A stretch of DNA of 64,000 bases from Salinibacter pepae (lineage in GTDB: Bacteria > Bacteroidota > Rhodothermia > Rhodothermales > Salinibacteraceae), in contig NZ_CAMTTE010000001.1 in NCBI RefSeq assembly GCF_947077775.1, positions 2,074,501-2,138,500 on the forward strand. The letters are read 5' to 3'. Under the pieces are notes generated by a model. It worked only from the letters and a program-made list of their open reading frames with translations. It searched no databases and was not told the origin of the DNA. Numbering within the stretch: the first letter of the stretch is position 1; every line of letters begins with the position of its first letter. The position numbers were made by a program, and so were the translations under genes. This document shows positions 5,123 through 53,597 of the stretch, one piece after another.

Positions 5123-5294
5123 GGCGACAGTGAGTCGGGGGCGATCCGCGTCCTCGTACGTCGGAAGCGGGGACCAGAGGGCCCGGTCGTTCCGTTGGGG
5201 CGCCCCGAATGTCCACAGTCCGAACCGAGAAGCTGAAGCTTGATCCAGGCACGCGTGCTCGGAGGGGCTGGGGGCCGCCGGCGTGGGACTGCGC

Positions 5295-17700: not shown

Positions 17701-19755
17701 ATTGCCAATGTGGGCGCCTGGGAGTACGACGTGCGGAAGGAGAGAAGCGTGCTGACGGACCAGGCATGCCGCATCCACGGGATTTCGCCGGACCGCGACC
17801 TGACCCCGGAGCAAAGTCTGGCGTTTTACCACCCGGACGACCGGGATGCGGTCGCAGCGGCGTTCCGGAGGGCCGTCGAGGAGGGCGTGCCCTACGACAT
17901 GGAGGTTCGCCTGATGACCCAGGAAGGGGAGGAGCGGTGGGTCCGCACCCGCGGGGAGCCGCAACTCGACACCAGTGCGGCCGAGGCCGCGAATGGAGAT
18001 GCCTCGAAGGGGCAGGACAGCTCGCAGGGCGAGATCGTCCGGGTGCGGGGGACGGTCCAGGACATCACCGAGCGCAGGGAGCGCCGCCGGGAGCTGGAGC
18101 AGGCCGACACGATGTTTCGGGGCGCCCAGGATGCTCTGTTCCTGATCGACGTCGACCACGCCGGCGGCGAGCCGTCGTTTGCGATTGAGAAGCTCAATCC
18201 CGCCTACGAGGAGGCCACCGGGATGTCCGCAGCGTCCGTTCGGGGGAAAACGCCAGTGGAAGCCATTGGAGACGAGGCCGGCCGGTTTCGGAAGGCACGG
18301 TACCAGAAGTGCCTCGACCAGGAGAAGCCCCTCGAATACGAAGAAGAGATTCCCCTGGAGGGGGAAATGACCTACTGGGAGACCCGAATCACGCCGGTCT
18401 TGGTGGGGGGAACGGCCGAGAAAATCGTCGGCTCTACCCGCGAGGTGACCGGCCGCAAGCAGCGGGAGCAGTTTCGCCGCCAGCGGCGCCAGAAGGTCGA
18501 GGCCCTCTACGAGGCCACCAACCAGTTGCTTCGGGCCGAGGGCAAGGAGGCCGTGGGGGCGCTGCTCGTGGACCTCGTCGACGAAACGTTCGACTTCGCG
18601 GGCACGGCCGTCCGCTTCGCGAAAGACGGCCGGCTGGTCCCCACCAGCGTCTCCCCTGCGCTCCAGGCGCACATGCCGGAGCGCCAGTCCTATAATTTTG
18701 ACGAAGAGACGCCCGTGGCCGAATCGTACCGGACGGGTCAGACCCAGGTCTACCACAACCTCCGAGAGGGAGACAGCGCAGTGAACCGGGGGGATATTCG
18801 GGCGGCGGCCTACGTGCCGATGGGCCGCCACGGCACCCTCTCGGTGGGCAGTCGCCGGGTTGGAGGAATTGACTCTTTTGACCGCCGCCTCGTCGAAGTG
18901 ATAGCCGACTACGCCACCCTGGTGCTCGGTCGCGTGGATCGGGAAGCGGTTCTCCGCGGGGCGAAAGAGGAGGCCGAACGGGCCCGCCAAGAGGCGGAGG
19001 CGGCAAGCCAGGCGAAGTCCGTCTTCCTGGCGAACATGAGCCACGAGATCCGCACGCCGCTGACCTCCATCCTCGGCTTTGCGGAGGCCATCGGGGAGGA
19101 GGTCGGCGGGGACGACCAGACCGAGAAGACCGACCGGTCGGACGTGGACCTGCCGGCGCTCCGTCAGTTTGCCGCCCTGATCGAAAGCAGCGGAGAGCGC
19201 CTCATGAACACGCTCACCGGTGTGCTCAACCTTTCGAAGCTGGAGGCCGGTGAGATGAACCTTGCCCCCGAGCCGGTTGACCTGGCCGCGGAGGCCGAGA
19301 AGGCCGTTCAGGAGTTCGACCCGCAGGCGCGAGACGCCGGGGTTGACCTGGCGGCGGAGGGAGGCCAAGACGCAGTCTGGGCCCGGGCCGACGAGGGCGG
19401 CGTGCAGATCGTGCTCCGCAATCTCTTGAGCAACGCCGTTAAGTACACGGGAGAGGGCGGTGCGGTGCGAGTTTCTGCCCGGACGGACGGGAAACAGGAC
19501 GCCGTGCTGGAGGTGGTGGACACCGGCATTGGGATGGACCCGGCCCAGGTGGAGGATCTGTTCGAGCCGTTCCGTCAGGAGTCCGAGGGCCTGGCCCGGG
19601 AGTACGAGGGCACTGGGCTGGGCCTGGCGGTGACCTGGAAGGCCCTCCAGCAGATGGAGGGGGGCGTCGAGGTGGAGACCGAAAAGGGCGAGGGCACCTG
19701 CTTCACGGTCCGGCTTCCGGCGGCACGTGTGGAGAACGGCCTAGACGAGCCCTGA
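14749..19755 (+). CDS. giant 7TM multi-PAS GAF histidine kinase
   Basis: This is a 1668-residue sensor kinase. Residues 1-225 form a seven-helix membrane module like the N-terminal 7TM sensor of bacterial kinases. A short PAS-like segment follows (about 235-325), then seven PAS/PAC repeats starting near residues 338, 471, 594, 726, 852, 974 and 1119, each ending in a D(I/V)T(E/P)R-type PAC motif. A GAF-like domain (about 1247-1400) precedes HisKA, whose phospho-acceptor His in NMSHEIRTPLTSILGF is near residue 1428. The HATPase_c domain has NLLSNAVKYTGEGG, DTGIGMDP and GTGLGLAV. There is no receiver or Hpt domain. The sixth PAS strongly resembles the single PAS of the upstream kinase. The kinase core resembles that of the kinase at 61900-63768 (FRQESEGLAREYEG shared). 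It probably integrates several small-molecule or redox cues; its partner is unknown. Confidence 0.92.
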   Translation: MFMWPPPLGKPVYLIYISVFGGAALSCLLGAWRAQRIAGSDVRRGLVALLSTSGLWAVAHVGMLLAPGLQWKTVFYEAGLVVGFGTVWAWGWLCSAYSGRRLHRRRMVQGIALVVFVVVTLTKLTNAWHGLYFAAGWHTTPFAHLQIDHRTLYWITAALSYTLAAVGFFMVAEPLRRVQVGAGQLAGLFGLTALPLIANGLGYLSPALLDVSHEPVGVAAFAIGVLFVYQDRFEETGRTGTQANPALVLSKGGRLRNYNEAAATLFPALAEESAVGRRLSDLLPEVAEAIAEGAEPLQVDESGTARYFRLSQSRYGRGGGRQVVLKDVTERVLRRRVREQEHRFLAEAVGQAREAVLVTEAGPLDEPGPRIVYANEAFEAMTGYREAEVLGRTPRVLQGPETDEAVLGSLRAALEAGEHWQGETVNYRKDGTPYVVQWNVAPVTGEGGEIQHWVSVQRDVTEEREQEEQLRRQKGLLEQTQRLAGAWEVDVETGEGTGSEAFYQILEMEGEPALTAEKGFQFFAPEARPQVREAFERCVETGTPYDLELPVVTAEGHRRWVRTVGGPSETSEGEVTKVAGALQDITPRKETEEKLRRSREQLSMAVEGGNVGTWNWDLETDEVIFNRRWAEMLGYSREELDFDFSTWEALVHPEDLPRALQMLETYIEGDAGTYDPEIRMRTKSGGWKWIQTIGRVVERDGEGAVTRAAGIHLDIDERKRAEAELQRSRERYRSLFEDSSSAILVHDLEGRIQEANPQAESLFGRSTGALEGLSVRDLHPSGESEVATEKRAALRDGAAYQAVARYERADGSAFWGEVSASVTEIGGRAVARTLIQDVTERVRSRKKLEHYREYTDRLLDAIDDLFLVFDEEAKLTRWNDRVVEVTGYADEALGGMEALGFVPEEERERVASQIADGFMTGHAKMDIPLRRADGTTVPYEIAGNLVDRPGEGFRVVCIGRDITARRRRKQRLERQNDLFERAQEIANVGAWEYDVRKERSVLTDQACRIHGISPDRDLTPEQSLAFYHPDDRDAVAAAFRRAVEEGVPYDMEVRLMTQEGEERWVRTRGEPQLDTSAAEAANGDASKGQDSSQGEIVRVRGTVQDITERRERRRELEQADTMFRGAQDALFLIDVDHAGGEPSFAIEKLNPAYEEATGMSAASVRGKTPVEAIGDEAGRFRKARYQKCLDQEKPLEYEEEIPLEGEMTYWETRITPVLVGGTAEKIVGSTREVTGRKQREQFRRQRRQKVEALYEATNQLLRAEGKEAVGALLVDLVDETFDFAGTAVRFAKDGRLVPTSVSPALQAHMPERQSYNFDEETPVAESYRTGQTQVYHNLREGDSAVNRGDIRAAAYVPMGRHGTLSVGSRRVGGIDSFDRRLVEVIADYATLVLGRVDREAVLRGAKEEAERARQEAEAASQAKSVFLANMSHEIRTPLTSILGFAEAIGEEVGGDDQTEKTDRSDVDLPALRQFAALIESSGERLMNTLTGVLNLSKLEAGEMNLAPEPVDLAAEAEKAVQEFDPQARDAGVDLAAEGGQDAVWARADEGGVQIVLRNLLSNAVKYTGEGGAVRVSARTDGKQDAVLEVVDTGIGMDPAQVEDLFEPFRQESEGLAREYEGTGLGLAVTWKALQQMEGGVEVETEKGEGTCFTVRLPAARVENGLDEP

Positions 19756-41129: not shown

Positions 41130-42041
41130 TCACAGATCCAGAATGCGCAGGGCCTCATCGAGCGTGCCGAGGGTGTAGTCCGGCTGCTCCGACGCCGCCT
41201 CCGGCGTTTCGCGGCCCCACAGGTCCCCCGGGCAGTACAGGGTCGTGCAGCCGGTGGCGTTTGCCGGCCGGATGTCCCGCTGCAGCGAATCGCCGATCAC
41301 GACGACCTCAGCCGCCTGCGGCTCCGAGAGATCGACCGCGTTGCCGATGGCATGGCACACGTCTCGAAACGTGTCGGGCGTCTTCTCCCGAAGCACGATG
41401 TCGTCGAAATATTGGCCCCCTCCGATCCCGTGGGCGTCAAACGCCACCTCGAGGCGATCGGGCGCGCCCTCCGAAAAGAGGACGGACGTGCGGCGGTCGG
41501 GCCGGGCGGTCCGCCACGCCCGGACGCCCCGGAGGAGGGAAGCGGCCCCGTCCAGGAGGGGCGGTGGTGCGCTTAGCGCAGACCGGAACGCCTCGGCCGC
41601 CTTCCGCGCCCGGCTCCTGTCGCACCCTGGAGGCTGGCGGCCGGCCCGGACCTGCTCGGACGCCCAGCGAAGACGAGACGTCTGGATGCCGGCCTCAGGT
41701 CCGCCCCGAAGCCCCGACACGTAGAACGCCGCCGCCCGGGCCAACTGCTCCAGGTCCGGCCCTTCGCCCCCGGAGGACGGGAGGTGCTGGCTCAGGCGAT
41801 ACAGGACATCGGTCGTTTCGAGGCGCTTCTCCCCGTCGGGACGCGCCTCCTCGCCGGGCGGGTCCGCGGGCGAGGGGGCGGCGTCGTGGGGCCCGTCACC
41901 AGACGACGGGCCCGGGCCGGGTTGGGGGTCCGCCCCCTGCAGGACCTGAATCATGGCGCTTCGTGCCCGCCTGAAGGTCACATTGGTATCCCAGAGGGTG
42001 TTGTCGGCGTCCAGGACCAGCGCGTGTGGGGAAACCGGCAT
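41130..42041 (-). CDS. HAD-superfamily hydrolase
   Basis: This is a 303-residue cytoplasmic HAD phosphatase. Motif I is LVLDADNTLWDTN (nucleophile Asp near residue 10, acid-base Asp near 12). Motif II is around TSVLFSEG, motif III the Lys in REKTPDTFRDV and motif IV VVVIGDSLQRDIRPANATGC. A long helical cap with a Pro/Asp-rich disordered insert (about 35-75) lies between motifs I and II. The DNTLWDTN motif is typical of HAD phosphatases acting on sugar or nucleoside phosphates. It lies 213 bases downstream of the inositol-YcaO gene cluster on the same strand, separated by a 20-bp repeat array. It may serve as a phosphatase for it, but this is speculative. The start at 42041 places motif I near the N-terminus as usual. 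Confidence 0.8.
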   Translation of the reverse strand: MPVSPHALVLDADNTLWDTNVTFRRARSAMIQVLQGADPQPGPGPSSGDGPHDAAPSPADPPGEEARPDGEKRLETTDVLYRLSQHLPSSGGEGPDLEQLARAAAFYVSGLRGGPEAGIQTSRLRWASEQVRAGRQPPGCDRSRARKAAEAFRSALSAPPPLLDGAASLLRGVRAWRTARPDRRTSVLFSEGAPDRLEVAFDAHGIGGGQYFDDIVLREKTPDTFRDVCHAIGNAVDLSEPQAAEVVVIGDSLQRDIRPANATGCTTLYCPGDLWGRETPEAASEQPDYTLGTLDEALRILDL

Positions 42042-42173
42042 CGGGGGACACGATTGGAAACGTCTGAGTGGGGCTTCGCTTTGGCCGAATCCGCCTTTGG
42101 CCAAGTGTCCTTCAGGGCAGCACGCTCTACGGGGCGCAGGTAGGTTTTCTAAAGAAGTTTAGGGGGCGACAAT

Positions 42174-42233
42174 TGGACGCGAGGCAGGATTGATGGACGC
42201 GAGGCAGGATTGACGGATGTGATGCAGGATCGG
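42174..42233 (-). repeat. 20-bp tandem repeat, three copies
   Basis: TGGACGCGAGGCAGGATTGA occurs at 42174-42193 and 42194-42213; a third diverged copy fills 42214-42233. The array lies immediately after the epimerase stop, between the cluster and the HAD gene. Confidence 0.8.
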
Positions 42234-42254
42234 ATGGTACTGGAAGCGTCTGAC

Positions 42255-43190
42255 TCAGGGGGCCTGCACGGGGGCGTCACTTGAAAACCACTCAACTGTC
42301 TTGCCGAGCCCTTCACGGAGAGGTGTCTCCGGCTTCCATCCCAGTACCGACTGTGCCTTTGCGTAATCAAGAACGCTTCTCTTCTGCTCCCCGGGCAGGG
42401 ACGGACCGTGCTTCTCGGCAACGTCCGCACCGGTCGTTGCTTTGATCAACCGAAAGAGGTCCGTGACGCTTGTTTCCTGGGCAGTCCCAATGTTGACAAG
42501 GTCACAACCTTCGTGGTCGAGGGCCTGTACGTTGGCCCTGGCGACATCGGCGACGTACACGTAGTCTCGTGTTTGATCGCCGGCGCCGTTGATCACCGGC
42601 TGTGTGCCGCCAAGCATTTCGCCGACAAAGATCGCGACCACACCGGCGTCGCCAGTGGGGTCCTGTCGGGGACCGTACACGTTGGCGTACCGGAGCGAGA
42701 CGACGTCAATGCCGAACTGCCGGGCGTAGTACTGAAGGTAGTGCTCAGCGGAGAGCTTCGCGACCCCGTACGGAGACACCGGGCGTTCCGGGTGAGTCTC
42801 GTCCTGTGGCGTGTACTCCGGCTCCCCGTAAATGGCCCCACCCGTGGAGGCAAACACGACGTTCTGAAGGCTACCCCGGCGCCCCGCTTCCATCAGGTTG
42901 AGCAGTCCAAGCACATTCACACCAGCGTCGTGCGTCGGGTCTTCCACAGACGCGCGGACATCGATCTGAGCGGCATGATGGACCAGCGCATCGAAAGATC
43001 GGGCCCGAACCAGGTCGGCGGCAGCTTCGGATCGGACATCGAGAACGTGAAGGGTAGCCTCATCGGGGACATACTCGCGCCGTCCCGCCGAGAGATTGTC
43101 CATGACATCCACGCAGTGGCCCCTTTCGACGAGCATGTCAGCGACATGCGATCCGATGAATCCAGCTCCTCCTGTGACGAGGACGTCCAT
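42255..43190 (-). CDS. NAD-dependent epimerase/dehydratase (UDP-glucose 4-epimerase-like)
   Basis: This 311-residue extended short-chain dehydrogenase/reductase is of the nucleotide-sugar type. It has the NAD-binding GGAGFIGSHVADML at the start, NLSAGRREYV, the active-site ASTGGAIYG ... SPYGVAKLSAEHYL (Tyr-x3-Lys, near residues 145-150) and RYANVYGPRQDPTGDAGV. This pattern is usual for GalE and related epimerases of UDP-sugars such as UDP-glucose, UDP-GlcNAc and UDP-glucuronate. The sugar cannot be assigned by eye. It is the last gene of the eight-gene inositol-YcaO cluster (62 bases after the deacetylase), and may make the donor for the cluster's glycosyltransferase. The start at 43190 is at the first strand. 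Confidence 0.9.
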   Translation of the reverse strand: MDVLVTGGAGFIGSHVADMLVERGHCVDVMDNLSAGRREYVPDEATLHVLDVRSEAAADLVRARSFDALVHHAAQIDVRASVEDPTHDAGVNVLGLLNLMEAGRRGSLQNVVFASTGGAIYGEPEYTPQDETHPERPVSPYGVAKLSAEHYLQYYARQFGIDVVSLRYANVYGPRQDPTGDAGVVAIFVGEMLGGTQPVINGAGDQTRDYVYVADVARANVQALDHEGCDLVNIGTAQETSVTDLFRLIKATTGADVAEKHGPSLPGEQKRSVLDYAKAQSVLGWKPETPLREGLGKTVEWFSSDAPVQAP

Positions 43191-43252
43191 GCTGTTGAAG
43201 TCGGATGTTGGATTGAGAGGCATCACGGGTGAGAAGGCACGCAGCGGGGACG

Positions 43253-44197
43253 TCAGCAGTGCGTCCTCAGCAGCAATGCATCGAGCCTCCCTGCGGCATC
43301 GGCATTCCCGCGGAACCGCTCGACGGCCGAAGGAACCCCCTCGCGGTTTGACAAGGAGCCTTGAGAGCTCGCGCCGTCGGCGTCGCCCTGTATGCGGCGG
43401 GCCTCTTCGTGGGCGAGGTAGGTCAAGGCACGCCGCATGATGGCATGCTCCGCGTCCCGATCCTCTTTGGGCGTCGCTCCACCCCGGCTGCTGGCAGGCT
43501 GACTTTCGGCAGAGGCCCAGTCACGGTCAGAAAACCGACGCGTAAACTGGCGTCCAAGCTGCGACTCGTAGGCGGCCGCCCCGTTGAGCTTCTGCCGCAG
43601 AACCGGCTCTACGTCGACGGCGAGCGGGCTGCGCTTGCGAACGCGGGGGAATGGAGAGTGGGCGCCGAGATGCTCGATGACGTACGGCGCGTCGCGATAC
43701 CAGACGAGCGGCGGGCAGGTATCCAGCGATTCCACACGGCCGACGGCATTGACGAGCTGGACGTGATCGACATGCCCGCCGATGGCCTGCGGAAGGGCGA
43801 GGAGGTCCGGCTTGTGCTCGCGGAGCAGGGCACGCAAATAGCCGCAGAGGGGATCCACCACAGAATCGTCGTCACGAATGGGGCCGAAAAGAGCATCGGG
43901 CGACGAGTAGCCGCGATGCGGGGCCTCCGGAAACGGTCCGTGCACGACGTTGGAGGCCCCGACCTGCTCGGCGAACACGCGGTCTTCGTCCCGACGGAGC
44001 GCCATGTAGTCCACGTCCGCACCGATGCCCTTGTCCAATTGGCACCTGAGCGCAAAGCCGGACGGGTCCGGCACCGGTGCGGCGAACAGCGTCGCGTGCA
44101 CGACCTGCCAGTCCGCATCGGCGAGCCGGGCCATCAGCCCGCCGCACGAGAAGGCAGCATCGTCCAAATGAGGGGACAAGACCGCGGCTGTCGGCAT
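43253..44197 (-). CDS. PIG-L/LmbE-family N-deacetylase
   Basis: This 314-residue enzyme belongs to the zinc-dependent PIG-L family, which includes MshB (mycothiol) and BshB (bacillithiol). The metal-binding SPHLDDAAFSCGG is at residues 8-20, where the family has A-H-P-D-D-E; here it is PHLDDA. GGHVDHVQ near 142-149 supplies the distal His. The family removes the acetyl group from a GlcNAc-linked aglycone. Encoded 33 bases downstream of a GT4 glycosyltransferase, it fits a GlcNAc-inositol deacetylation step in the cluster, though its true substrate is unproven. The C-terminus has a long acidic, Ser-rich region (about 225-290). There is no signal peptide, so it is cytoplasmic. Confidence 0.85.
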   Translation of the reverse strand: MPTAAVLSPHLDDAAFSCGGLMARLADADWQVVHATLFAAPVPDPSGFALRCQLDKGIGADVDYMALRRDEDRVFAEQVGASNVVHGPFPEAPHRGYSSPDALFGPIRDDDSVVDPLCGYLRALLREHKPDLLALPQAIGGHVDHVQLVNAVGRVESLDTCPPLVWYRDAPYVIEHLGAHSPFPRVRKRSPLAVDVEPVLRQKLNGAAAYESQLGRQFTRRFSDRDWASAESQPASSRGGATPKEDRDAEHAIMRRALTYLAHEEARRIQGDADGASSQGSLSNREGVPSAVERFRGNADAAGRLDALLLRTHC

Positions 44198-44230
44198 GGA
44201 GAAGGAAAAACGAGACCACAGAGGGCGAGA

Positions 44231-45460
44231 CTACAGAAGGTGTGGCTTCTCGTGGTAGATGCACCGGTCGACGGGCCCATCCGGCAGTGACCAACTCGTG
44301 TCCGGCTCCGTGCCCCTTATGTCCCGGTAAATGTCTGCGATCTGGCGGGCAATGACCGACCACGCATACGTCGACCGGCATTCCGCAAGTGCATCCTCAG
44401 CGAGGCGGGTGCGCAGGTCGTCATTCTCGACCATCCGGTAGAGGGCCTCGGCCAACCCATCGGGGTCGCCCGGAGAGACGAGGAGCGCATTGTCTTCGTC
44501 TCGCAGGCAGTCCACCACGCCAACCGTCTCGGTCGAGACGATGGGCACCCCGCTCGCCATTGCTTCAAGGATCGTGTTCGAAAAGCCCTCTGCGTACGTC
44601 GGCGAGACAAACACGTCCCCTCGGCGGTAGATGTCCGGGACGGTATCGTAGGGCGCGTAGCCGGTCATCTCCACCCGGTCCTCCACGCCCAGCGTACGGA
44701 TGCGCTCCTCGACAGCGCCGACGTCCGGGCCGATGCCGGACATGATGAGACGTACCGAGTCCGGAAGCTTGGCAACCGCATCGATCATGTCGACTGCTCC
44801 CTTGCGCTCGTCCACCCGCCCGTGGTAAAGGAGTGTCGGGGCGGTGCTGTCCTGGAGGGCACCGACAGCCTCCTCGTCCCGTGGGGCAAAGCGGTCGACG
44901 TCTACCGCACCGGGAACGATCGTAAAGCGGTCCAGGGGCGTGCCGTGGTTTTCACGCACCTCCTTCGCGAAGGACCGAGAGCCGATGAGCAGTCGGTCGG
45001 CGTGGCCGAGGACAGCCTGCATTGCGGCTTCTAGGGTCTTGGATTTCGTCCCAACCCAGTGCCCGTCCCCTCCTTGAATGGAGACGACGTTTGGGATGCC
45101 GAGCTTCCGGCTGGCCTTCAAGGCCGCGAGCCCAGGCGGGTAGCCGTACTGCGCGTGGATGATGTCGAACGGTTCAGCCTCGTGTTCTGCCACGACACGG
45201 TCGACGATCGCATCGATGTCGCGCTCGAAGTCTCCATTCTCGGCCTCGCCCTTCGACTCCATCCCGATCACCGTTACGTCCTCTACGTCGTTGGGCGGTC
45301 CCCCTCCGTACACGCCCTTTCCTTCGGGATCATCGCGGTACTGGGCGAGCATCGTCATGTCGTGCCCCAGATCCACCATCTCGCGGAGCAGGTTGAGCGC
45401 GTAGACGCTCATCCCGGAGATGGTGGGAAAGAAACGGCGGGAAATGAAGCAGATGCGCAT
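44231..45460 (-). CDS. GT4-family glycosyltransferase (MshA-like)
   Basis: This is a 409-residue retaining glycosyltransferase of the GT-B fold. The N-terminus MRICFISRRFFPTISGMSVY corresponds to the acceptor-side loop (MshA has a GGMNVY-like segment). The donor domain has LLYHGRVDERKGAVDMI (near residue 215) and SPTYAEGFSNTILEAMASG (near 290), the E-x7-E motif of GT4. The frame upstream of 45460 is not protein-like, so ATG 45460 is the start. With an inositol-phosphate synthase and a deacetylase in the same cluster, the simplest inference is transfer of an N-acetylhexosamine or other sugar to an inositol phosphate. Spacing to its neighbours is 33 and 47 bases. Confidence 0.88.
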   Translation of the reverse strand: MRICFISRRFFPTISGMSVYALNLLREMVDLGHDMTMLAQYRDDPEGKGVYGGGPPNDVEDVTVIGMESKGEAENGDFERDIDAIVDRVVAEHEAEPFDIIHAQYGYPPGLAALKASRKLGIPNVVSIQGGDGHWVGTKSKTLEAAMQAVLGHADRLLIGSRSFAKEVRENHGTPLDRFTIVPGAVDVDRFAPRDEEAVGALQDSTAPTLLYHGRVDERKGAVDMIDAVAKLPDSVRLIMSGIGPDVGAVEERIRTLGVEDRVEMTGYAPYDTVPDIYRRGDVFVSPTYAEGFSNTILEAMASGVPIVSTETVGVVDCLRDEDNALLVSPGDPDGLAEALYRMVENDDLRTRLAEDALAECRSTYAWSVIARQIADIYRDIRGTEPDTSWSLPDGPVDRCIYHEKPHLL

Positions 45461-45507
45461 TGTGTCGTTGAGATGGATGCATAGAGTCAGAACGTGGCGA
45501 ACGCCCC

Positions 45508-46350
45508 TCACGCATCGGGGGAGACTCGTTCGGCGCTTCGGAGATAGTCGAGGGCGTCGGGGACTGTCTCGTGGGCGGTCGGGGACGCGCGCGAGAGCTC
45601 CACACAGACGAGACGCCCGAAGCCAACTTCTTCGAGCGCATCGAGAATAGCGGGAATGTCCATGTCGCCCTCTCCGAAGAACAGATGCTCGTGGATGCCC
45701 CGCTTCATGTCCTCGATGGCGACGGTCCCAAGGTCCGACTCGCACTCCCGAACGGCCGCCTGAGGGGCTCGCTCTTCCGTCACCAGACAGTGGCCCGTGT
45801 CGAGCGCGAGCCGAAGCCCGGGAACTTGGTCCTGTAGGCGATAGAAGTCGCCGACGGTCTCGACCAACATTCCGGGCTCAGGTTCGAACGCCGGCGTCAC
45901 GCCCCGCTCTTCTGCGGCTTCGACGACCTGCCCCACCCCCTCCACGAGCCAAGACCACGCTTCGTCCACGCCGACCCCTTCCTGGGGGCGTCCCGCCCAA
46001 AACGATACGGCTTCCCCATCGCAGATCGCCGCAACGTCGAGGGCTCGCGTCAAGAACTCGATCCGGCGATCGCGACCGTCCTCGGTCGGGTGGATCAGTG
46101 TCGGCTCGTGCTTCTCACGCGGGTTGAGAAGGAACCGTGCGCCCGTTTCCACCACGAGGTCCAGCCCTAGCTTGTCGAGGCGCGAGGACAGCTTGGATGC
46201 GCGGTGGTCAAGCCGCGGCGCGAACGGGTCAAAGTGGTGGTGATCCAGCGTTAGCGCGACGCCGTCGTACCCGGAGCCGGCGATCAGGCCAAGGGCGTCT
46301 TCGAGCCGGTGGTTCGAAGCACCGTTCGTGTTGTATGCGAACCGGAGCAT
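45508..46350 (-). CDS. sugar-phosphate isomerase/epimerase-type TIM-barrel enzyme
   Basis: This 280-residue protein of the xylose-isomerase-like TIM-barrel superfamily has LALDTGHCLVTEE and a metal-binding set ETGAR, FEPEPG, DTGHC and HEHLFFGEGDM. This is consistent with the Glu-Asp-His-Glu divalent-metal site. IPAILDALEEVGFGRLVCVE is the usual C-terminal strand-loop. Members isomerise or epimerise sugars and inosose derivatives, for example in inositol metabolism (IolE, IolH-like proteins). Here it follows the MBL-YcaO gene by 53 bases. With the Gfo/Idh oxidoreductase it could act on an oxidised cyclitol. Substrate not determined. Confidence 0.85.
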   Translation of the reverse strand: MLRFAYNTNGASNHRLEDALGLIAGSGYDGVALTLDHHHFDPFAPRLDHRASKLSSRLDKLGLDLVVETGARFLLNPREKHEPTLIHPTEDGRDRRIEFLTRALDVAAICDGEAVSFWAGRPQEGVGVDEAWSWLVEGVGQVVEAAEERGVTPAFEPEPGMLVETVGDFYRLQDQVPGLRLALDTGHCLVTEERAPQAAVRECESDLGTVAIEDMKRGIHEHLFFGEGDMDIPAILDALEEVGFGRLVCVELSRASPTAHETVPDALDYLRSAERVSPDA

Positions 46351-46403
46351 GTGTGCGGGCGCGGGTCGGGAGGATCAGTGTGACTGTTGGGAACTGGCCG
46401 TCG

Positions 46404-48746
46404 CTAGGAACGCTCTGCCTCGAGAGCAAGGACGTGGCGTTTCGGCTCGCGGTACATGGCGTACAGCCCGTCAACCGCCTCACGCATACGTCCCGGGTGA
46501 AACCAAGCCTGGTCGCCGAGTGCCTCCTCGTCGGCCGGAGGAAGCGGGACGCGCTGGGCACCGTTGGGCGGCTCCCCCAGCCCGGCAATGTCGCTCCCGC
46601 GCCGCACAAGGCGGCGGATGTTACGCCGCCCAATCCGATCGTACGTCGCTGTCTCCACCTCCAGGGGCGGCACGATTGCCTTCACAGCGTGCGCAGGACC
46701 TCCCTCTGGAGAGTAGTCGACATAGAAAATGTCGAGGCCCGCGTCGAGAAACCGCCCGGCAACGAGGTCGAGGAGGGCCTCCGGGGACTGCAGTGTGCCG
46801 GGCGCAACAGTGGGGAGGGACGAGAGGCGAACCGTCTCGTCGACCCGGAGGGAGAAGTCAATTCGGTCATGCAGGGCTTCTACGCTCAGGTCACTCCACT
46901 CCTTCAGGGCCTGGAACGACCGTGATTCTTCGTTGGCGGGGGACTGCTGGCGCACGTGCTCCTCGTACCCGTCCGGAAACACCTGGCGGATGTCGTCCAG
47001 CATGCCGTGGTTGAACCGCTTGCGGACGCGGGACGACGCGTATTCGCGCAGCGCCTTGGCCAGGGCAATCTCCCGGTCCGGGTGGACCCCTTCTCCACAA
47101 CCGGTAATCATGAGCGGATGCGGCGCGTCCTCCAGGTTGCGCTCGTGACCGACGACATAGAAATTTGCCATGCCGAACGCCGTGTCGGCAAGCTTGATGA
47201 TGGGCTCGACCCCGGCCGCGTCGAACTGATCGAGAAGCCGGCGAATGTCGGGATCGGCGACGCTGTCGACCGATACCCCGACGCCCTGGTCGAGGGCGCG
47301 GTAGGTGACGCTGTTTCCGTCCCGCTGCACCAGCTCCATGAGACCGTGCCCCAGGGCACGCTCGAAGGAGTCCCCCGCGCCGAGGCCGTTGGTGATGGGC
47401 GTGTAGAGCCAGCCGTCCTCACGCGCCGGAGAAATGCCGTCAAGGTCTCCGAAGTAGGCGGCGGCCTCCTCGATGGGAATCCAGACCGGATCGTGGGACG
47501 GGTACCGGCGCGCCTGCGCCCACACCAGGGGCTGGTCGTGGGCGTATGTTGTGCCCACCGGCAGGCGCAAGCGCCGAGGATCGAGGGCAGGCTCGCCGGC
47601 CGCGGCAAGATCCTCGTACGATGCCGTGCGGCGGGGGAGCTCCGGAACGGCCTGCCGACTGGAGGCCTTCTCGTATAGTTCCCCCCACGCGCCGATCCGG
47701 GCCGACGCGTCCGTCGACCCGTAGCCGGCAGACGTGTTCATGCCGGGGCGCTCCTCCGGGAAGTGCGCGACGGTCCACACCGGAATGTCCGTCCGGTCAA
47801 GGTCCGTGATGGGAAACGCAAACGTTTCCCCGGGGGGCATGGCCTCCTGATACGCACGCGCAGGATCTGCCGTGTGCGAACCCTCTGCGCGATCCGGGGC
47901 GGCATCTGCCTCCTCGACGGTTTCGCGCAGGGGGAGTGGGTCAGCGAACGGGCGGCCGCTGAGTTGCTCCGCGAACAGATGGAGGGCGGCGTCTTTGCCG
48001 CCGGATGGAACGACCTCCCACGGCGTGATGACGGCATCGAAGTCGAGCGGCTCCATCAGGTCGCGGTACTGCCGAATGTCCGCGTGGGTGAGCGGAATGT
48101 GGGCGTCGTACGCCCTGTGCGTGGAGATCGAGACAGCGTCGCCAACGGGGTACTCGTCAAGCGTATACTTGAGCGCGTCCCCGCAGAAAAGCAGGCGGCG
48201 ATCCTCGAGGTGAAGCACGGCGTGGCCGGGCGTGTGGCCGCCGGTGTGATGCAGGGTAGCGCCGGCAGTAAGTTCGGCGCGCCCGTCGAACGGCCAGGTC
48301 ACCGGAAATGCCTGCGCGTACGGGAGTTCGGCCTCCTGGATGACCGTCTCCGGTGAGAATCGCTCCGACAGCCGCCAGAGCGCGCCGTACACGTGGGCAT
48401 GCGAGGCGGACAGGTACTGGATCCCCCCAAGAGACTCAATGTGATCGAGCGCCGCGTCGTCGTACCACGTCGCCCCCTCGAACGCGATGTTGCCGTTCGG
48501 GTGCTCGACCAGGAATCCCCGCGAGCCGACCCCAATCTGGGGCTCGGTCCAGAACATCGTGATGCCGGGCAGCACCTCTGTCCAGTCCACGGACACGTGG
48601 TCGTCAACCTCGCCCGGCGTCAGAAATTCGTACCCGTCTGGGGGGAGTGGATGCCGGTAATCTTCGCAGACCGGGCACGATTCTGGCGGTGAGGGCCGTT
48701 TCTGCCAGAAGCCGGAGTGCTCTGTGCAGTAATGCGAGAGGGGCAT
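46404..48746 (-). CDS. metallo-beta-lactamase-YcaO fusion enzyme
   Basis: This is a 780-residue fusion. Residues 1-30 form a small Cys-rich start (HYCTEHSGFW ... SCPVCEDYRH) that may bind metal. Residues about 40-260 are a metallo-beta-lactamase fold with a degenerate first motif (SASHAHVYGALW instead of HxHxDH) but intact later ones: TGGHTPGHAVLHL and LLFCGDALKYT. Residues about 315-740 are a YcaO domain: GYGSTDASARIGAWGELYE contains the Glu-rich ATP/Mg-binding helix of YcaO enzymes, and FERALGHGLMELVQRDGNS and EIALAKALREYASSR supply further Glu and Arg. YcaO proteins use ATP to activate amide oxygens, making azolines, thioamides or amidines, or act on small molecules. No precursor peptide lies nearby, so this one likely acts on a cyclitol-sugar intermediate. 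It is the largest enzyme of the cluster and looks cytoplasmic. Confidence 0.8.
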   Translation of the reverse strand: MPLSHYCTEHSGFWQKRPSPPESCPVCEDYRHPLPPDGYEFLTPGEVDDHVSVDWTEVLPGITMFWTEPQIGVGSRGFLVEHPNGNIAFEGATWYDDAALDHIESLGGIQYLSASHAHVYGALWRLSERFSPETVIQEAELPYAQAFPVTWPFDGRAELTAGATLHHTGGHTPGHAVLHLEDRRLLFCGDALKYTLDEYPVGDAVSISTHRAYDAHIPLTHADIRQYRDLMEPLDFDAVITPWEVVPSGGKDAALHLFAEQLSGRPFADPLPLRETVEEADAAPDRAEGSHTADPARAYQEAMPPGETFAFPITDLDRTDIPVWTVAHFPEERPGMNTSAGYGSTDASARIGAWGELYEKASSRQAVPELPRRTASYEDLAAAGEPALDPRRLRLPVGTTYAHDQPLVWAQARRYPSHDPVWIPIEEAAAYFGDLDGISPAREDGWLYTPITNGLGAGDSFERALGHGLMELVQRDGNSVTYRALDQGVGVSVDSVADPDIRRLLDQFDAAGVEPIIKLADTAFGMANFYVVGHERNLEDAPHPLMITGCGEGVHPDREIALAKALREYASSRVRKRFNHGMLDDIRQVFPDGYEEHVRQQSPANEESRSFQALKEWSDLSVEALHDRIDFSLRVDETVRLSSLPTVAPGTLQSPEALLDLVAGRFLDAGLDIFYVDYSPEGGPAHAVKAIVPPLEVETATYDRIGRRNIRRLVRRGSDIAGLGEPPNGAQRVPLPPADEEALGDQAWFHPGRMREAVDGLYAMYREPKRHVLALEAERS

Positions 48747-48881
48747 GGTCGGCTAGCAGGAGAGGGGGCAAGTGAGCGTAGAAACGACTCGTCGTGAGAA
48801 CTACGTGTCATCGGACACGGATCATCGGACACGGATCGGGGCGTCGCGGGGCGCCAGGCCACACGACACCGGGCGACAGCG

Positions 48882-49943
48882 TCAGGCGGCAGGGGCCGGA
48901 GACACCGGGACCTCGGTACTGGGGGACTCGACTGCGGCGTCGACGAGGCGCATGATGTGGAGGTCGTGGGCCGGAGAGAAGGGAAACGGCTCGACGGTAC
49001 GCACCGAACGGGCGAAGGCGTCCACCTGCCCGAGAAACGGCGACCGGTCCTTGTCAAAATCAATCGCCGTTTCGGTGCCATCGCTGCGCGTAAGCGTGAC
49101 CTCGCCTCCTTCGTCCTGTCCCATCGTGTTGACCGCCAGTGCGCGCCCCTCGGTCCCGATGACTTCCAGGCGGCGTCGCGGAAACACGTCGGGGCAGTTG
49201 TAGGCGACGGACTGTGACAGGAGGGTGCCGCTCTCCGACCGTGCGATGAGGGCCGCACCGTCGTCCACCGGATAATCGAAGACCTGCCCCTGCAACAGGG
49301 CCGACACGGAGGTGAGCGGCTCCCCCAAAATCATCTGGGTGAGATCGAGGCCGTGGGGAGCGAGGTCGATGAATGCACCGCCGCCCGCGCGGTCGGGATC
49401 AACACGCCAGTTGTCGAGGCTGATGCCATCGGGAGTCCAGTCGGCCGGGGTCCAGCAGGCGTAATGGATCCGAACAGTGGTCACGGTACCCAGCGTGCCG
49501 TCCGCGACAAGATCCTGAAGCCGACGGTGAGCGGGGTGGAAGCGCTGGTCGAACGCTGTCGCGTAGCGGACACCGGCAGTGCGGCAGGCGTCTACCAAGG
49601 ATTCGGCCTCGGGCGTTGTGCGGGCCATGGGCTTTTCGCACAGCACATGCTTCCCTGCCTCCGCGCAGGCAGACACGAGCTCAGCGTGGCTGTCGTTGGG
49701 GGTTGCAACGTATACAGCGTCGAGGTCGTCGCGCCGGAGCAGCTCGCCGGTCCGCTGGGTTCTGCATGGCACACTGGTGTCAGGAAGCGTGGCCGCCAGG
49801 GCATCCCCGTCCCGGTCGCAAAGCCCCACGAGTCGGCTGTTCGAGGCGTTTTGGATTGCGGGAATGCCAAAGTCGCGGGCCACCCACCCGCATCCGATGA
49901 CCCCCCATCCGACCGTATCGACGTTCTGAGCGGGAGCGTCCAT
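48882..49943 (-). CDS. Gfo/Idh/MocA-family oxidoreductase
   Basis: This 353-residue NAD(P)-dependent dehydrogenase is of the inositol-dehydrogenase/glucose-fructose oxidoreductase family. The Rossmann start WGVIGCGWVARDFGIPAIQN is followed by LDAVYVATPNDSHAEL, GKHVLCEKPMART (the EKP motif near residue 102), WRVDPDRAGGGAFIDLAPHGLDL (the family's D-x3-H active-site region) and RRLEVIGTEG. Such enzymes oxidise a secondary hydroxyl of inositols or sugars to a ketone, or reduce ketones. Within the cluster it probably oxidises the inositol or glycoside. It lies 72 bases downstream of the HD gene and 135 bases upstream of the YcaO gene. The precise substrate cannot be read from the sequence. Confidence 0.9.
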   Translation of the reverse strand: MDAPAQNVDTVGWGVIGCGWVARDFGIPAIQNASNSRLVGLCDRDGDALAATLPDTSVPCRTQRTGELLRRDDLDAVYVATPNDSHAELVSACAEAGKHVLCEKPMARTTPEAESLVDACRTAGVRYATAFDQRFHPAHRRLQDLVADGTLGTVTTVRIHYACWTPADWTPDGISLDNWRVDPDRAGGGAFIDLAPHGLDLTQMILGEPLTSVSALLQGQVFDYPVDDGAALIARSESGTLLSQSVAYNCPDVFPRRRLEVIGTEGRALAVNTMGQDEGGEVTLTRSDGTETAIDFDKDRSPFLGQVDAFARSVRTVEPFPFSPAHDLHIMRLVDAAVESPSTEVPVSPAPAA

Positions 49944-50015
49944 GTTGGGGCTGTCGTTGAGAGTGTTGGGGTGCGCGGTAGAAGAAAAAAAGTGGCGAGC
50001 CGGGCGGACCGGAAG

Positions 50016-50957
50016 TCAGGAGAAGACTGAGGCGTCGAGCACGCGCTGCTGCCAGTCCTGTGCGAAGCCCTCGTGGACAAGGTTGTATTCGTCCAGCGCC
50101 ACGTCGAGGGAAAAGTCCGCCGTCTGCGCGTGCCAGGCGATTTCCAAAACCCGGTCTAGTGCATCGGCAGCGTGGAAGGTTCGCGCTTCTGGAGAATCGA
50201 CGTGTTCGGTGTGGGCAAGAGCGGAGTGGATCGGGTCGTGGAGCTCCTCTGGAATCGCCCGCATTGCCCGCTCGCGGCCTGCGTCGATGAGGGCGCCCGC
50301 CGAATCGCCGAGGATGACATCGCCCGCATGCCCTGCGTCCGGGAGCGTTGCGTTGTGCAGGTGATGAGCAAGGCCGATCAGGTATGTTGTTGCAACATCG
50401 GCCCCAAAAAGCGGAGCGAGCAGGACCCCGAAGACGGCAACAGCGCCACAATGGTCCCCGTGGCTCTCAGTCGGGGTCAGCATCAACCGAGACGTCCCTG
50501 GGGCAGTCACGCCCGCTCGCGGTTGCTCGCAGAGCGCGTCGACGAACCCAGGAGACTCTCCTCCGTCCCGCACTGGCTCCCCTGCGGCGTCCTTGCTGGA
50601 AATTGCCTCACGCAGCGAATCGCGGAGCGGGGAGTCGGGAAGCGGGGCTTCCTCGAAACCACGGACGCGGATCTCACGCGTGGTTTCCGCGCTCAGTCCA
50701 TGCTCGCGGAGGACAGGAGCGGATACGTCGGCAAGCCGCGTTGCCAGGATGGCCTCGGCGGTTTCTTCGATTGCGGCAGGCCGGAATGATGCAGTTTCCG
50801 GGGCGTCCTCAACATGGAGAATCCGGCTCCATCCTCTCCGAAAACTCCGCTCCATCCAACTTCCGGTGCGGCCCGCCGATCGGACCCGCTTGAGGTTGAC
50901 GATGTCGCGGAGCAGCGGTTCGTACGCGGGCAGGGTTGCCAATCCAGGGTCGGACAT
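50016..50957 (-). CDS. HD-domain phosphohydrolase-like protein
   Basis: This 313-residue protein has HD-superfamily features in its second half: SHGDHCGAVAVFGVLLAPLF, then YLIGLAHHLHNATLPDAG, a His/His-Asn-type metal-binding helix pair with an Asp. SPEARTFHAADALDRVLEI, where the HD fold places another Asp, comes later. The N-terminal half (residues 1-150) is not recognised, with a Gly/Asp/Glu-rich stretch near 120-145. HD proteins are mostly phosphohydrolases of nucleotides or phosphate esters. Between the inositol-phosphate synthase (58 bases upstream) and the oxidoreductase, it is a candidate for removing the inositol phosphate. The ATG at 50957 is preferred over an upstream TTG (50981). 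Confidence 0.7.
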   Translation of the reverse strand: MSDPGLATLPAYEPLLRDIVNLKRVRSAGRTGSWMERSFRRGWSRILHVEDAPETASFRPAAIEETAEAILATRLADVSAPVLREHGLSAETTREIRVRGFEEAPLPDSPLRDSLREAISSKDAAGEPVRDGGESPGFVDALCEQPRAGVTAPGTSRLMLTPTESHGDHCGAVAVFGVLLAPLFGADVATTYLIGLAHHLHNATLPDAGHAGDVILGDSAGALIDAGRERAMRAIPEELHDPIHSALAHTEHVDSPEARTFHAADALDRVLEIAWHAQTADFSLDVALDEYNLVHEGFAQDWQQRVLDASVFS

Positions 50958-51014
50958 GTCGGGGCCATCGATCAGGCTCAAGAACGCGGCGGGCGCACTG
51001 CCAGGGGGGTACGC

Positions 51015-52376
51015 TCACCTGTCTGCGACGGATGAGGACGGGCTGCCCGACGGCGCCGCCGACTCCGGGGCCTTGCCGTTGCTCTCAGTGCCACTGCTTT
51101 CGGTGCCGTTGCTCGCGGGAATGCCTGCCTCTCCATTTTCCTCCGATGGAGACGCCCCGTCCTTCGAGCTGTGAACTCGCTCAAGCCACTGATGGAGGGC
51201 CCTCTGCTGAGAGGGGAGGCCGTGCTCCGGAACGTGGCCCTTCTCCACCATGGGGGACTTGAAAAACACCCCGAGATGCTCCTGGACGCCGCCCTGTTCG
51301 GTGCGATCGGCAAGATCGACACACCGAACCAACTCGATCACGAGCGGGGCCGCCAGGATGGAATCGCGGCAGAGAAAGTTGAGCTTCAGCTGCATCTTCT
51401 TTCCAAGAAACCCCGTCAGGTCGATGTTGTCCCACGCCTCCTTGTTGTCGCCACGGGGGCCGTAATACCGGATGTCGACAATGTGGTCCTCAACCTCATA
51501 CCCCAGTATGGAGTCGAGCACAGACCCTTTGGTCTCAACCTTCGAGGCGAGAGAGTCCTCGTCGCTGAGAGCACGGCCGTCGCGGTTGCCGAGGATGTTG
51601 GTCGAGTACCACCCGTCCACGTTCAGTGCTCGTGACCTCAGGCCCGGTGCTAAAATGGTTTTCAGGAGCGTCTGTCCGGTCTTGCCGTCCTTTCCGGCCA
51701 CGGGAACGTTCAGGCGCGAGGCCATCTCCCGAAGGGCAGGGGTGTCGGCGGCCAGGCTGGGCGTAAAGTTGACGTACGGCACGCCGGCATCGATCGCAGC
51801 GAACGCGTAGAGCATCGCCGGACTGATGGCCTCGTGGTTTTCCTCGATCCCGTTGCGAAACGCCTCCTCAGAACCGTATACAGGCAGAGAGGGATCGGCC
51901 CGAGCCTCCGTGGAGGCCAAATTCACGACCACGAGGTTGTCCAGGTCGTTCTCGCTTTTGAAGCGACGCAGGTCATCCTGTAGCGTGTCGACCGTCTCTC
52001 GGTGTCCCGACGTGGCCACTTGGTGGTCCCCAGTTACCTCCCGACAGAACCGCTCATTGCCCACCGCGGGCCAGGGGCTGAGTGATCCCAAGCTAGAGCG
52101 AACCTTCTCCAACTGACCTGGATCGAGCACATCATGGTTCTCTGCGGCCTGCTCGAGGTCTACGTCGTAGAAGTCCCAGCCGCCGAACACAAGCGACTCG
52201 TAGGAGGCAAGGCCCTGCGTGAGGCTCTCATCAAGGGCTGCGAGGGGAAGCCCGTGGTGCTTGGCATTGCCGGAGCGCATCAATTCAATCCCGGCGACCG
52301 TCGTCGTCGCGACCGCGCCGCCAAGTCCCACTATGGCAACACCGAGTCGTCCAGAGGGGGAGTCAGAAGAGGCCAT
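51015..52376 (-). CDS. ino1: myo-inositol-1-phosphate synthase
   Basis: This 453-residue NAD-dependent enzyme converts glucose-6-phosphate to inositol phosphate. The NAD-binding start is AIVGLGGAVATTTVAGIELM. Family phrases follow in order: SPAMLYAFAAIDAGVPYVNFTPS (about 190-215), AGKDGKTGQTLLKT (about 225-240), LNVDGWYSTNILGNRDG, VLDSILGY and YGPRGDNKEAWDNIDLTGFLG. The Lys residues of GKDGKTGQTLLKT and GDNKEAWD are the conserved catalytic lysines. The C-terminal 60 residues are a Ser-, Gly- and Glu-rich tail not needed by the family, with a short repeat near 51062-51115. As first gene of the cluster it supplies the inositol core. Start at the ATG at 52376. Confidence 0.95.
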   Translation of the reverse strand: MASSDSPSGRLGVAIVGLGGAVATTTVAGIELMRSGNAKHHGLPLAALDESLTQGLASYESLVFGGWDFYDVDLEQAAENHDVLDPGQLEKVRSSLGSLSPWPAVGNERFCREVTGDHQVATSGHRETVDTLQDDLRRFKSENDLDNLVVVNLASTEARADPSLPVYGSEEAFRNGIEENHEAISPAMLYAFAAIDAGVPYVNFTPSLAADTPALREMASRLNVPVAGKDGKTGQTLLKTILAPGLRSRALNVDGWYSTNILGNRDGRALSDEDSLASKVETKGSVLDSILGYEVEDHIVDIRYYGPRGDNKEAWDNIDLTGFLGKKMQLKLNFLCRDSILAAPLVIELVRCVDLADRTEQGGVQEHLGVFFKSPMVEKGHVPEHGLPSQQRALHQWLERVHSSKDGASPSEENGEAGIPASNGTESSGTESNGKAPESAAPSGSPSSSVADR

Positions 52377-52706
52377 CCGTTCGTTTCTCTGCGTGTGAGA
52401 GCATCAAAATTGCCGTCTAGTGTAATAGCTCTCATTGCCTTTTCTCTCCCTTCTCTTCACAACGGTTGTGTAAAGTATGTGCGTGCGGGTGCCTTCTCCC
52501 AATCAGCGTCGCGGCGAAGCGATACGCGCGTACTCCATGCGAGACTCCTGCCGTCCAATCCTGCCGTCCATCCAGCGAGGCTCTCGGGCCTTTCGCCCAA
52601 CCCCCCCTCGGCTCGGTTGACTGCGACGGGGTCGGGTCACGATGAGAGATCAGAGGCCCCCAGGATCGTTGCTGCTCGCGGTCCCACCTGATGCCCCCAG
52701 AAACGA
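52377..52706. promoter_or_regulatory. divergent promoter region of inositol cluster and EamA transporter
   Basis: A 330-base region with lower GC than its surroundings, between ino1 (minus) and an EamA-type transporter (plus). It holds TGAGAGC (52395-52401) and GCTCTCA (52427-52433), an inverted repeat with a 25-base gap, and a perfect palindrome at 52458-52470. No exact promoter boxes can be fixed by eye. Confidence 0.45.
52458..52470. promoter_or_regulatory. 13-bp perfect palindrome, possible operator
   Basis: CACAAC-G-GTTGTG. Its position about 80 bases upstream of ino1 and about 240 bases upstream of the transporter gene, in an AT-richer stretch, is where a repressor or activator site would be expected. 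No matching regulator gene lies in the cluster. Confidence 0.45.
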
Positions 52707-53597
52707 ATGAGTTCATCCACTAAGCCACTGGTTGGCGCCTACTCGGGGATTTTTTACATCGTGGGTGCTGCGTTCTTCTGGAGCCTAACGAGCGCCTTTG
52801 TCAAAGTCGTTGGCCAGGGGGGCGTGTCGAGTCAGCAGATTGTCCTCACCCGTGCCGCCGTCACTTTAATCTATAGCTACGTCCTCGTCCGATGGTCTGA
52901 CGAGGCCTCTCTGTGGGGAACGGACCTGACGTTGCTCTGGCTCAGGGGCTTTTTCGGATTTGCAACCCTCAGTTGCTTTTTCTTTGCCCTCACGAAGCTT
53001 CCCCTGGCAGATGCCACCGTAATCCACTACACCAATCCCGTATTCACTGCCCTCATTGCCGCGGCAGTGCTTGGGGAGGAACTACGCACGTCGGAGCTTC
53101 TTGGGGCGCTTGCGAGTCTTGCAGGGGTCGCCCTTATCACACAGCCCTCGTTTCTATTTGGAGGCTCTGGCGCGGCACTCGATCTCACCTATGTCGGAAT
53201 TGCCCTCCTGGGGGCCGTGTGCGCCTCGTCGGCGCAAGTACTGATCCGCAGGCTCCGCAAGACCGAGCACCCACTGGTGGTGGTGTTCTACTTTCCCTTC
53301 GTCGCCACGATCGGGGGACTTCCGACGGCAGCGGTCACCGATCTGCAGTGGCCGACGTTCTGGGAGTGGATCATGCTGATCGGAGGGGTTGCCGGCTGTG
53401 CTCAAGTTGCACAAATTCTGCTCACGAAGGGGCTCCACAATGAGAAAGCCGGTCGTGCCATGGCCGTGTCGTATCTCCAGATCGTCTTCGCCGCCGGGCT
53501 GGGGCTTCTCGTGTTTGGGGAAGCGGTCGACCTCTGGAGCATAGCGGGGGCGCTCCTCGTGGTTGCCGGGACAGGATTTGCCGCCTGGAAGCGGTAG
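52707..53597 (+). CDS. EamA/DMT-superfamily transporter
   Basis: This 296-residue membrane protein has about ten helices in two EamA repeats. The first repeat includes GAAFFWSLTSAFVKVVGQGG and LRGFFGFATLSCFFFALTKL. The second includes YVGIALLGAVCASSAQVLIR and GRAMAVSYLQIVFAAGLGLL. It ends VVAGTGFAAWKR. EamA proteins of this size export metabolites such as amino acids or small organic compounds. It is divergent from the inositol-YcaO cluster and shares its upstream region, so it is a candidate exporter or importer of the cluster's product. Its start is ATG 52707. Confidence 0.85.
   Translation: MSSSTKPLVGAYSGIFYIVGAAFFWSLTSAFVKVVGQGGVSSQQIVLTRAAVTLIYSYVLVRWSDEASLWGTDLTLLWLRGFFGFATLSCFFFALTKLPLADATVIHYTNPVFTALIAAAVLGEELRTSELLGALASLAGVALITQPSFLFGGSGAALDLTYVGIALLGAVCASSAQVLIRRLRKTEHPLVVVFYFPFVATIGGLPTAAVTDLQWPTFWEWIMLIGGVAGCAQVAQILLTKGLHNEKAGRAMAVSYLQIVFAAGLGLLVFGEAVDLWSIAGALLVVAGTGFAAWKR

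Follow-up and report, generated by a model that had tools for sequence, protein, structure and literature searches.

YcaO enzymes activate amide oxygens through phosphorylation, and those that act on ribosomally synthesised and post-translationally modified peptides (RiPPs) or in McrA thioamidation take a peptide or protein substrate and work with E1-like or TfuA partners. Mycothiol is made by MshA-MshD, a pathway that draws on the Ino1, glycosyltransferase family 4 (GT4) and PIG-L families, and bacillithiol by BshA, BshB and BshC, with a similar GT4 plus PIG-L logic. The mycosporine-like amino acid pathway (MysA-MysD) combines a cyclitol core with an ATP-dependent step, MysC being the ATP-grasp enzyme of mycosporine synthesis. 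The ebo cluster (EboA-F; Yurchenko 2016, PMC5133447) has a cyclitol-forming first step. Here, we describe a gene cluster of Salinibacter pepae that resembles each of these systems in part, found in a 64,000-nucleotide stretch of contig NZ_CAMTTE010000001.1 (hereafter, the window). We think it reasonably probable that the cluster encodes a biosynthetic route, so far undescribed, to a small molecule composed of a cyclitol and an aminosugar and finished by a YcaO enzyme together with a metallo-β-lactamase-like (MBL) domain. As a pathway it would be new, although the enzyme families themselves are known, because each known pathway considered here has a defining feature that the cluster lacks when tested.

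The cluster comprises eight open reading frames (ORFs) at positions 42255-52376, all on the minus strand and without internal stops:

51015 to 52376, minus strand: ino1, an inositol-3-phosphate synthase homologue of 453 amino acids (Pfam, 225.9 and 111.4 bits)
50016 to 50981, minus strand: HD-like protein of 321 amino acids, with HH at residues 206-207, known here only from this cluster
48882 to 49943, minus strand: Gfo/Idh/MocA oxidoreductase of 353 amino acids (Pfam)
46404 to 48746, minus strand: MBL-YcaO fusion of 780 amino acids (Pfam YcaO, 171.8 bits; Lactamase_B, a weak 33 bits)
45508 to 46350, minus strand: TIM-barrel protein of 280 amino acids (Pfam AP_endonuc_2), which accompanies ino1
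44231 to 45460, minus strand: GT4 glycosyltransferase of 409 amino acids from its ATG (Pfam GT4); the listed ORF extends to 45745
43253 to 44197, minus strand: PIG-L family deacetylase of 314 amino acids (Pfam, 49.1 bits)
42255 to 43226, minus strand: nucleoside diphosphate (NDP)-sugar epimerase (Pfam), an optional accessory outside the core

The initial annotation had reported eight same-strand genes separated by short gaps, which we confirm. The gaps span 26-135 bases: ino1-HD 33, HD-Gfo 72, Gfo-YcaO 135, YcaO-TIM 53, TIM-GT4 47, GT4-PIG-L 33, and PIG-L-epimerase 26 from a GTG start or 62 from an ATG start. The TIM-GT4 value is counted from the GT4 ATG at 45460, the listed ORF beginning at 45745. 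Family scans with Pfam and NCBIfam covered the ten proteins of window positions 41130-53597; Pfam agreed with the family names given earlier for seven of the eight proteins, the HD protein having no Pfam or NCBIfam match at E 0.001.

A single-sequence scan of genome contigs with the 780-residue fusion protein returned no relatives, and a five-sequence alignment profile was used next. With one genome per species, the profile scan returned 213 relatives, of which 80 were kept; with the window, 84 loci that were fetched and one that was added afterwards, the set comprised 86 loci. HD, Gfo, YcaO and GT4 genes occur together in 73 of the 86 loci, and PIG-L accompanies them in 71 of those 73. Gene order is nearly invariant among the 73, the commonest being ino1-HD-methyltransferase-Gfo-YcaO-TIM-GT4-PIG-L (35 loci), followed by the same order with MBL before YcaO (20 loci). 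The methyltransferase, absent from the window, is present in 61 of the 73. According to their record titles and the listing of the tree, these loci fall into eight phyla, namely Bacteroidota, Pseudomonadota, Actinomycetota, Myxococcota, Chloroflexota, Verrucomicrobiota, Planctomycetota and Armatimonadota, with Methylobacterium/Methylorubrum contributing 34. Because the same order recurs in eight phyla, the arrangement is beyond chance. The initial annotation had proposed an undescribed pathway uniting Ino1, GT4, PIG-L and YcaO; the search for co-occurrence across genomes bears this out, as the combination recurs far beyond the strain and its block order is kept across phyla. The epimerase, also named as a member, lies outside the conserved order, and related epimerases (31-45% identity) stand near only 9 of the 85 other loci. 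The conserved core is thus seven genes: ino1, HD, Gfo/Idh, MBL-YcaO, TIM barrel, GT4 and PIG-L. Some of the remaining 13 loci are cut by contig ends.

The first step of the cluster comes in two forms. Among the 73 loci, 66 carry ino1 and TIM, four carry an EboD-type sugar phosphate cyclase, three carry TIM without visible ino1, and none is mixed; with Methylobacterium/Methylorubrum set aside, the tally is 32, 4, 3 and 0. The pairing of TIM with ino1 went unremarked in the initial annotation. The cyclase-type loci, from Armatimonadota (L027), Verrucomicrobiota (L031 and L132) and Planctomycetota (L034), have neither ino1 nor TIM, and a dehydroquinate (DHQ)-synthase-like sugar phosphate cyclase fills their place (NCBIfam PRK06203, 549 bits in L027 and 483 bits in L034). 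L132 came from a search with the cyclase. No ino1 or TIM orthologue was found elsewhere in the genomes of L027, L031 and L132, where the best scores were 41.6 and 23.6 bits. Two of the loci with TIM and no visible ino1 (L043 and L046) start inside HD at a contig end. In the GT4 tree, L034 is placed away from L027 and L031, and the swap therefore occurred at least twice. The genome of L034, an Isosphaeraceae metagenome-assembled genome (MAG), also has a separate, ebo-like 6.6-kb contig (L135) with ino1-TIM-UbiA-TIM at 1241-5410; both module forms thus occur in one genome in different clusters, the cyclase being in the YcaO cluster.

The same swap is seen in ebo clusters. The plasmid relatives nearest to the cyclase (44-55% identity to that of L027) are EboD proteins; 15 of 16 such matches lie in records with EboE, and the sixteenth, from Gloeothece, adjoins a TatD gene. 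TIM relatives at 45% identity or more occur in 33 plasmid records, four of them YcaO clusters and 29 ebo clusters; those 29 coincide exactly with the set of ino1-bearing ebo clusters, and their TIM proteins are 45-50% identical to that of the window. Across 48 plasmid records with EboE, 29 have ino1 and TIM, 15 have EboD, four have neither and none has both; as Streptomyces supplies 25 of the 29, many near-identical, independent events are far fewer. The others are from Nonomuraea, Embleya and Gemmatirosa. An ebo-like region on a plasmid of the haloarchaeon Halocatena salina (L142) has ino1, three sugar isomerase-type (TIM) genes, UbiA, TatD and a phosphodiesterase, its TIM proteins being just 32% identical. 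Since YcaO and ebo clusters show the same mutually exclusive swap, Ino1 plus TIM and EboD probably supply equivalent cyclitols. In PMC5133447, EboD is put forward as a cyclitol maker, probably from sedoheptulose 7-phosphate; the word inositol occurs neither there nor in PMC6282210. Although the ebo cluster shares this first step in both interchangeable forms, it differs in the remainder: its UbiA prenyltransferase (EboC), TatD hydrolase (EboB), EboA, EboE and EboF belong to families absent from the ten window proteins scanned, and the ebo regions viewed contain no annotated YcaO, PIG-L or HD gene.

The source genome (3.63 Mb in three contigs) has no other YcaO gene. The fusion protein consists of a zinc-ribbon-like cysteine motif, an MBL domain to about residue 280 and a YcaO domain at about 340-696. 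The latter exceeds the curated cut-offs of Pfam (171.8 against 25.7 bits) and of TIGR00702, the YcaO-type kinase model (81.2 against 75.65). Its core aligns with MJ1094 over the full length (E 9e-27), and the YcaO profile also retrieves the Methanopyrus kandleri YcaO, LynD and TruD. MBL is fused to YcaO in 5 of the 86 loci and is a stand-alone gene in most loci outside Methylobacterium; that the two are separate in most loci outside the group to which the window belongs had likewise gone unmentioned. Four of four Methylobacterium genomes checked, whose clusters lack MBL, have an MBL homologue (40-42%) on another contig. Given the fusions and these homologues elsewhere, YcaO probably depends on MBL as its partner. 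As to the function of MBL, the one indication is a 50-residue similarity to PqsE-type thioesterases (E 5e-4). Extra YcaO copies occur in some loci: a Myxococcaceae MAG has a tandem of three (L037, 272-4806), and a second copy follows PIG-L in Armatimonadota (L027, 13101-14567) and Verrucomicrobiota (L031, 13512-15017).

The ino1 product matches the Ino1 structure PDB 7nwr at E 1.2e-91. Of 24 PIG-L homologues, at least 90% retain the PHLDD motif. For the Gfo/Idh/MocA protein, the top NCBIfam models reach 142 and 115 bits, both under cut-off. The TIM model (predicted local distance difference test, pLDDT, 93.9) folds like a ketose 3-epimerase (Z up to 31.6, with 259 residues aligned at a root-mean-square deviation of 2.0). 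A single-sequence PDB search with TIM places IolE on top (E 6.6e-5), but the family profile favours UlaE and other ketose 3-epimerases, so that an IolE-type dehydration is only one of the candidate reactions. HD domains carry HD at the position of HH 206-207 in the HD protein, and residues H174, H177, H206, H207 and D273 are invariant in 25 sequences. All four of its plasmid relatives lie inside this cluster. A Roseomonas homologue scores 21.7 bits against HD_3, just under the 22.5 cut-off. In the structural model (pLDDT 89.4), residues 142-288 align with HD phosphohydrolases, including a Pyrococcus protein (Z 11.9), HDDC2 (11.5), YfbR (10.4) and OxsA (9.7), values that lie where helical proteins may match by chance; Foldseek gave no match at E<=0.001. 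MIOX, considered for an oxygenase role, is not among the structural matches listed, a listing that does not exclude it. The initial annotation had taken HD for an inositol-phosphate phosphatase. This does not fit the four cyclase clusters, in which HD persists, as the sugar phosphate cyclase class yields an unphosphorylated cyclitol (PMC5133447).

We propose that the Ino1 plus TIM module or the EboD-type cyclase would provide a cyclitol, to which GT4 would attach an N-acetylhexosamine (as MshA does) and from which PIG-L would liberate the amine (as MshB does). Gfo could create a ketone by oxidising a hydroxyl group of the ring or of the sugar, and HD may take off a phosphate or process an intermediate otherwise. 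YcaO, with MBL, would then spend ATP on the small molecule, activating one of its carbonyl oxygens for attack by a nitrogen (or sulfur) nucleophile, a YcaO step that would need no peptide substrate. A final methylation would follow in most lineages, that of the window excepted. After PIG-L, Roseomonas haemaphysalidis has a gene annotated as an MdoH glucosyltransferase (L019, 19108-20670), whose family has 13 members under seven genus labels among the loci; it could add further sugars to the product.

Several points weigh against this proposal. The product, substrate and activity of the pathway are predictions. The YcaO relatives of L041, L064, L078 and L090 stand outside such a cluster; in these loci, the gene adjoins ABC permease genes and the rest of the cluster is absent, the permease domain being confirmed for L041. 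L057, uncut by a contig end, has TIM without ino1. Unrelated GT4 families score as well as MshA and BshA (best, TuaC at 113 bits), so that the acceptor of GT4 is not fixed. HD resembles HD phosphohydrolases in structure only, and weakly, and the TIM profile prefers ketose 3-epimerases (UlaE, E 2.9e-12) over IolE (1e-7). Finally, a canonical Ino1 acting on C6 glucose 6-phosphate and an EboD using a C7 sugar, the proposal of PMC5133447, would give no shared compound; if Ino1 does use glucose 6-phosphate, either the EboD product is not C7 or the downstream enzymes accept both.

The well-supported branches of the 36-row GT4 tree put Alphaproteobacteria in two or more separate positions, one of which groups with Myxococcota and a planctomycete (98/95); therefore, the cluster has moved between phyla. 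By tblastn against plasmids, records of Hymenobacter volaticus and R. haemaphysalidis cover 80% or more of the fusion protein, and the next matches, two Methylobacterium records, cover the YcaO part only. The complete gene order is present in all four, MBL being absent from it in Methylobacterium. Among laboratory strains, Methylobacterium aquaticum 22A has the cluster on a plasmid. On the H. volaticus plasmid (L018), the annotation breaks the Gfo gene into two overlapping parts (12935-13983) and GT4 similarity falls in two stretches (17204-18435), which suggests frameshifts or sequencing errors. In a sample of the phylum, 16 of 394 genomes matched, and apart from the source genome the matches were partial (25-41% identity over part of the MBL or YcaO half); relatives of the fusion were found in none of the four genus-mates included. 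Base composition gives no signal of foreign origin or recent arrival, an idea that we rejected on this ground (G+C content 0.648 in the cluster, 0.656 in the remainder of the window). When 12 genus-mates were compared for an empty site by way of the adjacent EamA gene, one had a 55% homologue and one a weak match, and no clean site was found.

What the pathway makes can be addressed more tentatively. One possibility, plausible to us and still improbable on balance, is a mycosporine-like ultraviolet (UV) sunscreen. YcaO enzymes activate an amide oxygen; the corresponding group of an oxidised cyclitol would be an enolone, which is a vinylogous acid, and attack by an amine would create a UV chromophore. 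In this reading, oxidation and TIM-dependent rearrangement would give a cyclic enolone, YcaO would phosphorylate the vinylogous acid in the role that the ATP-grasp enzyme MysC has in mycosporine synthesis, and the glucosamine nitrogen would attack to form a conjugated enaminone or imine; the Methylobacterium product would be the UVA absorber methylobamine. This chromophore step is hypothetical. Of 111 Methylobacterium genomes, 108 have a YcaO orthologue (at least 80% identity), one has only a 29% match and two have none; in a class sample of 385 genomes, three match YcaO at E<=1e-20, two of them Methylobacterium, leaving one other genome. A screen of about 200 leaf isolates reportedly found that every UVA absorber was a Methylobacterium and that the compound was very polar. 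Judging in part by record titles, many of the named hosts come from leaf, air, desert, crust or glacier, which also suits a sunscreen. Yet a gene that is genus-wide correlates with any genus-wide trait, and Hymenobacter, a genus that is often sun-exposed, carries the YcaO gene in only 5 of 120 genomes.

Literature and neighbouring genes also bear on the sunscreen. Methylobacteria are described as producing UVA-absorbing compounds, methylobamine included, in PMC9664959, and the cyclase relatives EEVS and DDGS feed into sunscreens according to PMC5133447; methylobamine is an unproven candidate for the product. UV-repair genes lie near two clusters: uvsE and two spore photoproduct lyase genes within 15 kb in R. 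haemaphysalidis (L019, 1-151 and 20658-22779), and a spore photoproduct lyase gene in Rubrobacter (L028, 962-2074). With that lyase in 3 of 111 flanking ORFs scanned (213 chosen), we rejected a systematic UV-repair neighbourhood. Compared with the mycosporine pathway itself, the cyclase-type clusters use a DDGS/EEVS relative (PDB 5tpr, 4p53), the Pfam scan of the ten window proteins shows YcaO instead of an ATP-grasp ligase, and the GT4 and PIG-L of this cluster have no counterpart there. The fuller claim, a horizontally spread bacterial sunscreen family in which Ino1 plus TIM or an EboD-type cyclase would supply the precursor of a cyclic enolone, GT4 and PIG-L a hexosamine bearing a free amine, and ATP-dependent vinylogous amidation by YcaO and MBL would make a UVA chromophore, giving methylobamine or its kin in Methylobacterium, is more doubtful again.

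A protective thiol or thioamide is a slightly weaker candidate, and we regard it as unlikely. Here, YcaO and a zinc-ribbon MBL would place sulfur on the aminosugar-cyclitol as a thioamide, thione or thiazoline, much as a methanogen YcaO does on McrA glycine. Of the NCBIfam models, that of the McrA-glycine thioamidation protein does score highest with the YcaO domain, at 107.6 bits against 89.5 for SagD, but this lies far under the model cut-off of 365. At least 90% of 21 sequences retain four cysteines in MBL, whereas the window protein has histidine at one of them; neither a sulfur-carrier gene nor a TfuA-like one was seen among the cluster genes. The genome, moreover, already encodes BshC, the last enzyme of bacillithiol synthesis, as a single gene more than 1 Mb from the window (997999-999093 of contig C1; 353 bits, cut-off 27). 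The initial annotation had named a thiol as one possible product, beside an aminocyclitol and a compound like a compatible solute. A product that replaces the cell's low-molecular-weight thiol is not supported: because BshC is present, the cluster is, by the predicted gene functions, dispensable for the usual thiol, which would leave room for a second, unusual one.

That the locus is a thiazole/oxazole-modified microcin (TOMM) or other RiPP cluster with an overlooked precursor peptide is very improbable. Although the YcaO domain passes the generic kinase cut-off given above and shares its fold with RiPP and McrA-thioamidation enzymes, it falls under the cut-offs of both specialised models (for SagD, 219.25 bits), and it has an MBL partner in place of theirs: no E1-like protein is among the ten scanned. 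In Roseomonas, the seven junctions from HD through PIG-L overlap by 4-10 bases, so that no precursor gene fits between them; distant unlinked precursors were not searched for. A RiPP would also leave Ino1, GT4 and PIG-L without explanation. The SagD score, the missing E1-like partner and the overlapping genes largely refute this reading. PMC8776678, on Methylobacterium and YcaO, classes a Roseomonas mucosa YcaO, which may or may not be the enzyme of this cluster, as a RiPP enzyme; the open-access literature on YcaO with inositol, cyclase, sunscreen and related topics yielded no description of the cluster.

A mycothiol or bacillithiol pathway, like a chance pairing of two separate operons, can practically be dismissed and is refuted as far as sequence goes: the shared Ino1, GT4 and PIG-L families score far under the pathway cut-offs (GT4, 101.1 against 462.5 bits for MshA and 96.5 against 273.7 for BshA; PIG-L, 19.5 against 182.5 for BshB1; the ino1 product, 46.9 against 638 for mycothiol_INO1), YcaO, MBL, Gfo, TIM and HD are foreign to the mycothiol pathway, BshC lies outside the cluster, and the order is kept as a single block across phyla. 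As the initial annotation had noted for the window, there is no MshC: the best match in the whole genome reaches 201.7 bits against a cut-off of 485.1, and among 14 control genomes all have sub-cut-off matches and one passes.

If the proposed pathway is right, YcaO chemistry would extend past peptides and proteins into small-molecule biosynthesis, and genome mining that files such loci under azol(in)e RiPPs would mislabel them; if the product is a sunscreen, this would be the first YcaO to act on a non-peptide metabolite. The swap rule ties this cluster to ebo, both of them unexplained, and predicts interchangeable cyclitols from Ino1 plus TIM and from EboD, which bears on the reaction of EboD. 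The near-universal presence of the cluster in Methylobacterium puts its product within reach in tractable laboratory strains.

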